This document shows, piece by piece, positions 19,036 to 23,043 of a stretch of 23,043 nt of DNA. The notes below the pieces were generated by a model. It made no database searches, was not told the DNA's origin, and saw only the letters and a program-made list of their open reading frames with translations. The stretch lies in IMG/VR virus record IMGVR_UViG_3300017763_000215, positions 1 to 23,043 of that record; one strand, written 5' to 3'. Position 1 is the stretch's first letter. Each line of letters starts with the position of its first letter. The translations under genes were made by a program, and so were the position numbers. This DNA comes from a virus.

Positions 19036-21396
19036 ATGGCAGATTATAATATTAACGCAGTAACACGGCGTGTCGTGTTTACCGGCTCCGCTGGCACCGG
19101 GCCTTATGCGTTTTCGTTTGAGATCTTAAACAACACCGATATCGTTGCTTATTTCAATGCAACTAAGCTGACGCTGACGACAGACTTTACTGTGACGATT
19201 AACGCTAACGGCACCGGCTCTATAACGCTGGTGGTTAACGGTGGCGGCAACGTGCCACAAACACCAGTGGCGGCTGATCAAGTTGTTATTGTTGGTTCAA
19301 GAGATATTGAGCGCGTCACAGACTTTGTAACAGCCGGTGATTTGCTGGCATCTAGCCTTAATGAGCAGCTAGACGCGCTAACAATTTTTGACCAACAAGT
19401 TGCTGAAGAAAACGCGAGAGCAATTAGAGTGCCTGCATTTGACCCGGCACTGGTTGAGGATGGCGGCGTTGTTAATATGACACTGCCAACAAAAGACAGC
19501 CGCGCTGGCAAGACACTAGCCTTTGACACAAACGGCAACCCTGTTGTCGGTGAGGACTTTGGCACTTGGCGCGGTGACTGGGCTGCGTCAACAGTATATG
19601 ACATACGCGATATCCTGCGTGACGCTAGTAACTATAACATTTATCGCTGTAACACCGCACACACATCCAGCGGCGCTACACCAATTAGCAGCAACGCCGA
19701 TGCAGCTAAGTGGGATCTGGTGGTTGATGCGTCTTATGCGGCGACACAAGCAACCAACGCGGCAAACAGCGCAACGGCTGCGGCTACTGATGCAGACGAT
19801 GCAAATAAAATAGTGAACACTAATAATAATGTTCAGTACACTTTGTCTAATGGCAGTACAGGATTTTCTGCACTTCATTATTTGAGTGCAACCATTATTC
19901 AAGCTAATAATTCAGTAACACAAGCTGGCCTTGCTACAAGTGCAAAAACAGACGCAGAAGCTGCACAAACAGCAGCCGAAACTGCGTTGGATTTGTTTGA
20001 CGATGCTATGCTTGGGGCCAAAGCGTCAGATCCATCTCTTGATAATGATGGTCAAGCTCTTGCTGACGGTGCTTTATATTTTGACACTACTAATGATGTG
20101 ATGAAGGTTTACAACTTAGCTACAACAAGCTGGTTGCAATTAACGCCGACAGTTTCTAATCAAGTAAATATCAATACGGTTGCTGGTCAAGTCAGCCCGA
20201 CAAACAACATTGCCACTGTTGCTGGGATTGATAGTCAGATTACAACTGTAGCTGGAATTAATACAACCCATTTAAGCAATGTATCTGGTGTTGCTACACA
20301 GGTGGGAATTCTTGGAACTTCTGATGCTGTTTCCGATATGAATACCCTTGGAACCGCTGCAATTGTTACAGATATGGATACCCTTGCGGATCGTGCCGCA
20401 GACATTGCGACTCTAGCTGACATCCAAGATGGAACTACAGCAACCAACACTATGCAAACTGTTGTTAGTAATCTGACTGGAGTTAATAATTTCTTTGCTC
20501 AATATCGTACTGGTGCTTCTGATCCAACAACTAGTTTGGACGAAGGTGATTTATTTTATAATAGCACTTCAAATAATCTTAAATATTATAATGGTTCTGA
20601 GTGGGTAGTTGCTACAACTAGCGTTAATGGAACAGCTAACCGCAACACTTACACCGCTACGGCTGGTCAGACCACATTTTCCGCAACATATGATGTTGGT
20701 TTTGTAGATGTATATCTTAATGGCGTTAAGCTTATTGTTAGCACAGATTTTACTGCTACCAATGGAACATCCATCGTTCTTACATCTGGCGCTGCTCTCA
20801 ATGACACTGTTGATATTGTTGGGTATGGCGTATTCAATGTTGCAAACGTCAATTTCTCCATCAATGATGCGACTGATGTTAATACGGCTGGTTTAACCAA
20901 CGGTCAAATATTAGCGTTTAACTCAAGCACCAGTGATTTTGAGCCAGTAGATGCTAATGCTGGTGCAGCATTGTTAGCAGGCTCAACTTTTACAGGTGCG
21001 GTAGTAGTTAACAATCAGCTAGATATTGAAGAAGTCCACGAAAAAGTAACAGTGATTACGAGTACAACTGGAACTCTGACTTTTGATACAGCGGTTCAAG
21101 GCGTTGTTCTTGGAACAGCAAATCAAACAGCAAACCGCACCATTAATTTTACAAATGTAAACTCAACACTCGCTGTAGGTCAGAGCGTCACTTGCGCTGT
21201 GATGTTAAGCCAAGGCGCAACAGCTTATTACCTTAGTGCTTATCAAGTTGATGGCGGGTCGGTTACACCAAAATGGCAGGGTGGAACTGCGCCAAGCGCT
21301 GGAAATGCAAGCAGTATTGATGCTTACAGTTTTACAATTATTAAGACGGCCGACGCTACATTTACCGTGCTAGCGAGCCAAACTCAATTTGCATAG
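19036..21396 (+). CDS. Tail fibre with T7-type N-terminal domain, 786 aa
   Basis: The N-terminus (about 1-125) begins NINAVTRRVVFTGSAGTGPY and continues FSFEILNNTDIVAYFN. This is the T7 gp17-like virion-attachment domain. Then come a W178-W182...C205 module with the look of a small carbohydrate-binding domain, an Ala/Thr-rich coiled-coil-like shaft (about 235-325), and a 'GALYFDTTND...W' hairpin module (345-366). Short Asn/Val/Ala repeats of the type NINTVAG/IATVAG/ITTVAG follow (about 375-420), then a second hairpin module (504-523), a beta module resembling the N-terminal one (about 536-600), and a beta-rich tip. G+C falls along the gene. It should bind the host surface as a trimer (family knowledge). 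Confidence 0.85.
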   Translation: MADYNINAVTRRVVFTGSAGTGPYAFSFEILNNTDIVAYFNATKLTLTTDFTVTINANGTGSITLVVNGGGNVPQTPVAADQVVIVGSRDIERVTDFVTAGDLLASSLNEQLDALTIFDQQVAEENARAIRVPAFDPALVEDGGVVNMTLPTKDSRAGKTLAFDTNGNPVVGEDFGTWRGDWAASTVYDIRDILRDASNYNIYRCNTAHTSSGATPISSNADAAKWDLVVDASYAATQATNAANSATAAATDADDANKIVNTNNNVQYTLSNGSTGFSALHYLSATIIQANNSVTQAGLATSAKTDAEAAQTAAETALDLFDDAMLGAKASDPSLDNDGQALADGALYFDTTNDVMKVYNLATTSWLQLTPTVSNQVNINTVAGQVSPTNNIATVAGIDSQITTVAGINTTHLSNVSGVATQVGILGTSDAVSDMNTLGTAAIVTDMDTLADRAADIATLADIQDGTTATNTMQTVVSNLTGVNNFFAQYRTGASDPTTSLDEGDLFYNSTSNNLKYYNGSEWVVATTSVNGTANRNTYTATAGQTTFSATYDVGFVDVYLNGVKLIVSTDFTATNGTSIVLTSGAALNDTVDIVGYGVFNVANVNFSINDATDVNTAGLTNGQILAFNSSTSDFEPVDANAGAALLAGSTFTGAVVVNNQLDIEEVHEKVTVITSTTGTLTFDTAVQGVVLGTANQTANRTINFTNVNSTLAVGQSVTCAVMLSQGATAYYLSAYQVDGGSVTPKWQGGTAPSAGNASSIDAYSFTIIKTADATFTVLASQTQFA

Positions 21397-21408
21397 GAGG
21401 ATTTTATA

Positions 21409-22746
21409 ATGCCTATGTTGGCAGCGATTGGCGGCGGTTCATCTAGAGGATTCGGGTTTGGGATTTTTGATAGTATTTTTGTTCCAGACTTAGGTGGAAC
21501 TTATACTGAAACTAAACTATCAGCTTTAGATGCTCAAGCTTCTGATGAGTTTGGCAAAAATCTTTCAATAAATGGAACTGGTGAATATTTAATTTCTGGT
21601 GCAAGAAATGAAGACACGGTGGCTAGTAATGCTGGTGCGGCTTATATTTTTAAAAGAACTGATTCTACTTGGAGTCAACAAGCAAAACTAACTGCATCAG
21701 ATGGGGGAGCTTCAGATGGTTTTGGTTATGATGTTGCCATAAGCAAAGACGGAAACTATGCAATTGTCGGGGCTTGGTTTGAAGACGGAGGATCAGGTAA
21801 TCCAACAAGCAATGCTGGTGCTGGTTATGTCTTTGTTAGATCAGGATCAAGCTGGACACAACAAGCTAAGTTAGTAGCTTCCGATGCTGTTGCAAGTGAT
21901 TTGCTTGGACTGCATGTTTCAATAAATGAGGACGGAACATATGTAGCGTTAGGTGCTGAAGGGGAAGACACAGGTGGATCGTCTTCTGGTGCTGTTTATA
22001 TTTTTGTACGATCAGGTTCAAGTTGGAGCGAGCAACAAAAAATTACTCAAAGCCCATCATCTGCAAACCATAGATTTAGTAAGGTTTCATTAAATTCAGA
22101 TGGAACTTATCTTTTGGCTGGAGCAACTGGAGTACAAGGCTCACCAAATTTTAACAATGAAGGTGCAGTTTATGTATTCACAAGATCGGGTTCAACTTGG
22201 ACACAGCAACAAGGCCCAATATTTACTTCAGATGGACAATCTTCAGATGGATTTGGCATTTCAGTAGCTATTAATGAAGACGCTACAACTTTTATATCTA
22301 GCTCTAAAAATGAAGATGGTGGTTCTGGTGACCCAATAAGCAATGCTGGTGCAGCATATGTTTTTACAAGGTCTGGTTCAACTTGGAGCCAACAAGCCAA
22401 ATTAGTGGCTTCTGATGCACAAGCAAGCGATGATTTTGGGCAAAGTGTTGCAATAAATAAAGACGGAAACATTGTAGTAATTGGTGCAAATGATGAAGAT
22501 GGTGGTTCTGGTGATCCGACATCTAATGTAGGTGCTTTTTATGTGTTTGAAAGAACTGGCTCTTCTTGGACACAAAAGAAAAAAATATTATCGTCTGATG
22601 GTGACGCTTCTGACAGTTTTAGTCACGAAGTAAGCATTAGTGATGATGGGAACTACATAATATCTGGAGCACACGCTGATGACGGTAGTGGTAACTCAGT
22701 TAGTAACTCTGGTGCTTTGTATGTTTATAAAGTTCCATCTGCATAA
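21409..22746 (+). CDS. Seven-bladed FG-GAP-like beta-propeller protein, 445 aa
   Basis: Residues 1-30 are a Gly-rich leader (MPMLAAIGGGSSRGFGFG) of the kind found at the start of other marine phage tail proteins, probably a virion anchor. The rest is seven tandem repeats of 55-62 residues with the pattern KLxASDxxASDxFGxxVAI-xxDGxYxIxGAxxEDGGSG-xSNAGAxYVFxRSGSxWxQQ. This is the FG-GAP (FG-GAP_2) repeat of integrin-alpha-type propellers, and seven copies make a closed ring. A role in receptor binding or as a fibre tip is inferred from position behind the fibre gene. AGGAGG (21395-21400) is a perfect ribosome binding site. The gene is clearly AT-richer than its neighbours. No signal peptide is evident. 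Confidence 0.85.
   Translation: MPMLAAIGGGSSRGFGFGIFDSIFVPDLGGTYTETKLSALDAQASDEFGKNLSINGTGEYLISGARNEDTVASNAGAAYIFKRTDSTWSQQAKLTASDGGASDGFGYDVAISKDGNYAIVGAWFEDGGSGNPTSNAGAGYVFVRSGSSWTQQAKLVASDAVASDLLGLHVSINEDGTYVALGAEGEDTGGSSSGAVYIFVRSGSSWSEQQKITQSPSSANHRFSKVSLNSDGTYLLAGATGVQGSPNFNNEGAVYVFTRSGSTWTQQQGPIFTSDGQSSDGFGISVAINEDATTFISSSKNEDGGSGDPISNAGAAYVFTRSGSTWSQQAKLVASDAQASDDFGQSVAINKDGNIVVIGANDEDGGSGDPTSNVGAFYVFERTGSSWTQKKKILSSDGDASDSFSHEVSISDDGNYIISGAHADDGSGNSVSNSGALYVYKVPSA
21499..22743 (+). repeat. Seven tandem FG-GAP-like repeats
   Basis: Repeat units: 21499-21681, 21682-21864, 21865-22035, 22036-22209, 22210-22395, 22396-22578 and 22579-22743. Blades 1, 2, 5, 6 and 7 keep the SDxF start; 3 (SDLL) and 4 (NHRF) are degenerate. 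The CAAGCAATGCTGGTGC-type stretches of units 2, 5 and 6 are nearly alike in DNA, pointing to fairly recent duplication. Confidence 0.85.
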
Positions 22747-22770: not shown

Positions 22771-23043
22771 ATGAGTAGAGCAAGAAATTTTGCAGACTTG
22801 ATAAACAGCCCAAAAGGCAGGCATGTTACGACTGCAAGTTCTGGAAATGTTACGCTTAACCTAAGTGGTAACAACTCATTTTTTGACGCTGGCACAACGA
22901 CAGCGGCAACCGCCGTTACCTTTGGCACACCTGACACAACAATCAGGCGTTTTACTTATTCATTTATTCCGGGTTATACCTCTGCTGCAAGCTCAGTAGA
23001 CGACATAGATACTTGGCGTCTTGATTCAAGTATGAAGCTAACC
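22771..23043 (+). CDS. N-terminal part of a tail-region protein (runs off window)
   Basis: Open for 91 codons from ATG 22771 to the last base. AAGGA (22758-22762) is eight bases upstream. The start MSRARNFADLINSPKGRHV is a common leader of marine phage tail or collar proteins, typically followed by beta-rich repeats. What follows here (SGNVTLNLSGNNSFFDAGTTTA) is Thr/Ser/Gly-rich and beta-like. It is probably another tail fibre or tail-associated virion protein; the rest is not in the window. Confidence 0.7.
   Translation, partial: MSRARNFADLINSPKGRHVTTASSGNVTLNLSGNNSFFDAGTTTAATAVTFGTPDTTIRRFTYSFIPGYTSAASSVDDIDTWRLDSSMKLT

Follow-up and report, generated by a model that had tools for sequence, protein, structure and literature searches.

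The 445-aa protein encoded near the end of the window (the whole 23,043-nt stretch of viral DNA that was analysed, record IMGVR_UViG_3300017763_000215) is probably an adhesin on the tip of the tail fibre, which sits by a short plug on a socket domain and carries one of many swappable heads. We infer docking, presence in the virion and receptor binding from sequence comparisons and structure models. In the proposed mechanism, the first 18 residues would be the plug, binding the C-terminal socket of the fibre encoded directly upstream, while the seven-bladed FG-GAP propeller would be the outward-facing head that touches the host surface. Plug and socket would form a unit conserved across many environmental phages, and heads would be swapped by recombination where the plug ends, the usual head being glycine-rich and the one here an integrin-like propeller. 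In general terms, it is reasonably likely that we are looking at an undescribed and widespread plug-and-socket system, in which the PHROG 5906 domain takes an 18-residue tag and environmental podoviruses and myoviruses swap unrelated adhesin heads, integrin-like propellers included, by recombination at the tag boundary. The features concerned, all on the + strand, are listed below.

19036..21396, +, tail fibre gene, 786 aa, with a C-terminal socket domain (PHROG tail fiber, 5.5e-20)
20986..21396, +, socket (dock) domain of the fibre, about 135 aa (PHROG 5906, 5.9e-17, residues 663-785)
21395-21400, +, ribosome-binding site AGGAGG, seen in the sequence, overlapping the stop codon of the fibre gene
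21409-22746, +, FG-GAP ORF, ATG to TAA, 445 aa
21409..21462, +, leader tag MPMLAAIGGGSSRGFGFG, 18 residues, the proposed plug; it recurs on unrelated bodies, DNA homology ends at 21461, and it is unstructured in the model
21463..21495, +, variable linker IFDSIFVPDLG from the tag to the first strand, with low pLDDT
21496..22743, +, predicted seven-bladed FG-GAP_2 propeller head (Pfam, AlphaFold2 model, integrin alpha as nearest fold)
22771..23043, +, downstream gene, cut by the window end and without the tag, a probable second propeller-like protein (YbhE-like and roseophage protein matches)

The propeller protein (14% glycine) starts with a Gly-rich leader, which extends from residue 1 to about residue 28-30 and is conserved in its first 18 residues only, followed by seven repeats of 58, 61, 57, 58, 62, 61 and 57 aa. 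This agrees with the original prediction of a Gly-rich leader plus exactly seven repeats. The repeats had been taken for FG-GAP repeats, and it turned out in the Pfam search that FG-GAP_2 (PF14312) matched seven separate stretches with an E-value of 7.8e-81 and 266.5 bits (gathering cutoff, 23 bits), a match that is far above chance as judged from the sequence.

The protein is predicted to be a closed seven-bladed FG-GAP propeller. In the AlphaFold2 model (nine sequences; pTM 0.85), 28 strands (7 x 4) form a closed ring in which the N-terminal strand 33-37 completes the last blade, while residues 1-28 are disordered with pLDDT of about 30. When the model was searched against PDB with Foldseek, integrin-alpha chains ranked first by a wide margin (E 4e-16). 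Both the closed ring of seven blades and the likeness to integrin alpha, expected beforehand, are supported by the model. A single-sequence search of PDB gave no match, and a sequence profile was needed to reach the integrins (integrin alpha-6, 1.8e-6). The integrin calcium-loop motif DxDxDGxxD is absent from the whole 445-aa protein. Matches to AnfO, WD40 and methanethiol oxidase were below the cutoffs and were rejected.

The propeller gene follows the fibre gene after a gap of 12 nt. Its position among tail genes, noted earlier, is borne out by the PHROG annotation of the upstream gene as tail fibre; the upstream gene had also been called a T7-type fibre, and the Pfam T7-fibre N-terminal domain had no match in the window fibre. 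The fibre of the relative L003 matches this domain (6.8e-24). PHROG 5906, the family of the socket, is annotated as unknown function, and the socket exists as a stand-alone gene in the contig L004. Its AlphaFold2 model is all-beta (pLDDT 94, pTM 0.82), and the fold search against PDB gave no confident match (best E 0.36). T4 gp9 and gp10 were set aside as fold relatives for their insignificant matches in the same search, and profilin for a weak sequence match in PDB (E 0.039).

The FG-GAP protein is 86-87% identical in L003 and L004, the remainder of these contigs being otherwise different from the window. DNA homology to the window starts inside the fibre gene, at 20545 for L003 and at 20986 for L004, and in L004 it ends just past the FG-GAP stop codon; the window, L003 and L004 each have, directly upstream of FG-GAP, a gene ending in the same roughly 135-aa PHROG 5906 domain. 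On these alignments, the FG-GAP gene evidently moves as a cassette. Five other contigs (L023, L024, L025, L060 and L113) share DNA homology with the window from 20987-21018 to 21461, which is leader residue 18, and across contigs the homology of the socket region starts within 20986-21022. For example, L024 and L025 are 82% identical to the window DNA from 20987 to 21461 and then continue into a glycine-rich head, not a propeller. The recombination boundary, read from these alignments, is the end of the tag. Besides, a second socket type (ending ...YTCFASQPxxYA) accompanies a second tag type (MPLLTTLANxSxRGFG). The propeller heads of L035 and L023 are 73% identical, with tags that agree at 12 of 18 residues and socket types that differ, whereas L035 and L025 share the socket type and 15 of 18 tag residues with heads only about 31% identical. 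By this comparison, the leader type tracks the socket type and not the body.

We searched the tag in viral contigs with a degenerate DNA pattern, and the matches listed are a sample. Among them, a tag of about MPxLxxxGxGSxRGFG stands at the N terminus of over 100 proteins whose bodies are unrelated, most of them glycine-rich (about 24-39% Gly) and either in PF21722 or unassigned; the others among these matches include FG-GAP propellers, a 218-aa family, and proteins of 590 aa and 1245 aa that weakly resemble lactonase-type propellers. FG-GAP heads of seven blades are rare (4 of 200 distinct tagged proteins by profile), to which the second heads of L025 and L035, also FG-GAP with seven repeats each, are additional. 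When the 33-aa leader was compared with phage records by BLAST, there were no matches, probably because the query is short and of low complexity. A large group of proteins of about 650 aa (L145, L153, L155 and others) has the tag MPLQATSGAASYDAFGGG and the body YIEDVFSTYLYTGNGSTQTITNGI, and a socket variant with GVTTRWLGG pairs with this group. That one tag and socket occur in over a hundred environmental phages, under very different heads, suggests a shared system with exchangeable parts for holding on to host cells.

To see what the tag accompanies, we looked at the neighbouring genes. Among the matches listed, the gene directly upstream ends in a PHROG 5906 domain in 115 of 121 tag-selected rows, some of them redundant, and the other 6 are cases of a contig edge, of small ORFs in between or of another tagged gene. 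In the reciprocal scan for the socket alone, the domain was C-terminal in its gene at all 114 loci, and the next gene was tagged in 99 of the 113 loci with a readable neighbour, as scored by a tag position matrix built from the tag-selected set. This matrix replaced an initial tag regex, which found 81 of 113 and missed clear variants. The matrix was positive for 13 of 2,358 control ORFs, 11 of which are tagged genes by inspection and 2 unexplained. L025 and L035 contain two socket-tag pairs each. Across 144 distinct pairs, tag similarity and socket similarity correlate even for unrelated heads, with rho 0.22 (permutation maximum 0.12; 0 of 500 reached 0.22), a value to which shared phage ancestry, not removed by the permutation test, may contribute.

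Four of the exceptions among the 113 socket neighbours are GIY-YIG-like small genes (MNTAYVYTLTDPRNGMPFYVGKG...), located directly after the socket in L143, L157, L161 and L195, at the place expected for the tagged gene; L195 has a tagged gene in the contig too. By position, they might be free-standing homing endonucleases. In another arrangement (L009:7047-9596), the fibre contains seven fused FG-GAP repeats ahead of a C terminus that resembles the socket, and the next gene, MPLLATFAAGKWG, is tag-like.

The socket-tag pair also exists in cultured phages, namely roseophages CRP-3 and CRP-738 and cyanophage S-MbCM6. CRP-3 (L139 8430-8615) has an unannotated 61-aa ORF between the socket gene and the tagged gene, and a similar small ORF is present in L115. 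The podovirus record ctXG6705 labels the tagged neighbour as “tail fiber adhesin gp38”. Mass spectrometry was applied to the virion of S-SCSM1 (PMC9602691), and two adjacent proteins of this phage are recorded as belonging to the virion, one with a distant socket at its end and the other with a partial tag only. S-PM2 does not count as an example of the pair, since the tag is missing from its socket neighbour.

The leader had been proposed as a virion anchor. The anchor itself is supported, and its site is better placed at the fibre tip than on the virion generally, because the leader is a shared tag whose partner is one particular domain at the C terminus of the fibre encoded upstream. The gene order and size range would also suit a fibre chaperone, that is, a folding cap which attaches to the socket while the fibre is being assembled and departs afterwards, like T4 gp38 on gp37; T4 gp38 is released once assembly is done (PMC12892980), and transient chaperone caps are reported for Alteromonas phages (PMC10579305). 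A chaperone is expected to be conserved over its full length, whereas 18 residues are conserved here and the remainder is swapped between unrelated folds, and the glycine-rich bodies are more like adhesins than chaperones, which makes this reading unlikely.

We give an equally low probability to an enzyme or a decoration that acts on capsule or exopolysaccharide instead of a binding head. Seven-bladed propellers do include polysaccharide lyases, one of which appeared in the fold search (7esn, rank 35), but integrin heads came first there, no catalytic family was matched by the propeller protein, and the other heads borne by the same plug are glycine-rich and look like adhesins. A role outside the virion, either intracellular or in superinfection, seems a little more improbable still. 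It is favoured by the FG-GAP gene of Vibrio phage nt-1, which is among non-structural genes, and the location of the FG-GAP relatives in nt-1 and S-TIM5 outside tail clusters counts against a fibre-tip adhesin; however, the leader and the position seen here are common to tail-tip genes in many phages, and nt-1 is without such context. The adhesin on the fibre tip is our preferred reading.

The window, from a marine phage, is part of a viral contig. Its genes for portal (67% identity), terminase and capsid are collinear with those of Methylophilales phage MEP301, and for this reason an OM43-type methylotroph is a plausible host; MEP301 infects such a strain, FZCC2181. The FG-GAP gene does not seem to be present in MEP301, which has no FG-GAP annotation and is absent from the tblastn matches, and the tail-tip genes of the window do not align to it. 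The full form of the downstream gene is found in the near-identical contig L002 (9363-10574; 403 aa), where it is repeat-rich and YbhE-like, and its protein resembles the repeats of the tagged protein L088. It is a probable second propeller of YbhE type, different from the FG-GAP one. It begins with MSRARNFADL, similar to several short socket genes (MTRARDIANV, MTRAREMADL).

If the plug-and-socket system is real, a single explanation would cover a large class of marine phage genes that lack annotation, and a socket domain followed by a tag would serve as a sequence rule to find host-recognition heads in metagenomic phages. It would also mean that phages mount an integrin-like disc as an attachment head, and would offer a natural modular display system for study. 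No description of the tag-socket arrangement was found in the literature searched, which lay mostly outside subscription journals.

The original prediction had taken such a case to be undescribed, which is too strong. Propellers are known in receptor-binding or tail proteins of phages, such as Staphylococcus phage phi11 Gp45, PRD1 P2 and PhiKZ gp131C (PMC4901313), and Vibrio phage nt-1 and cyanophage S-TIM5 both have annotated FG-GAP proteins, that of S-TIM5 being listed as a virion structural protein. The protein studied here is comparable with the first three as a propeller on a host-recognition device, and shares the N-terminal strand closure with phi11; in contrast, those of phi11 and PRD1 have five blades, those of PhiKZ and phi11 are domains of larger proteins (PMC4901313), and none is on a shared plug. 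With the FG-GAP proteins of nt-1, S-TIM5 and algal giant viruses it shares homologous repeats (about 25-42% identity), and no leader or socket context was seen for the nt-1 and S-TIM5 genes. A 2024 prasinovirus paper regarded its FG-GAP gene as perhaps the first to be confirmed for a virus (PMC11467894), but the annotated phage and giant-virus examples argue otherwise. Like the integrin-alpha head and PF14312, the protein has seven FG-GAP blades, a closed propeller in the model and its best PDB fold match there; unlike the integrin head, it lacks the calcium loops and is a free-standing phage protein with a tag.

The closest parallel in function is the T2-type system, in which gp38 is on the tip of gp37, the N terminus of gp38 touches gp37 and pairs that do not match fail to work (PMC12892980); the gp38 head of S16 is glycine-rich (PMC9608196). 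As in T2 and S16, an adhesin would sit on the fibre tip with its N terminus docked on the fibre C terminus and a variable head to decide the receptor, the gene is directly downstream of the fibre gene, and most tagged heads are glycine-rich as in S16. The differences are the tag of about 18 residues against about 110, a socket without a confident solved relative, and heads that include propellers, the one in the window being a modelled propeller and not a glycine-rich PGII sandwich. No Pfam, PHROG or PDB match links the window propeller protein to gp38. Because the parts are not detectably homologous to gp38, we file the tag-socket system not as a member but as an analogue, which appears to work like T2-type gp37/gp38.
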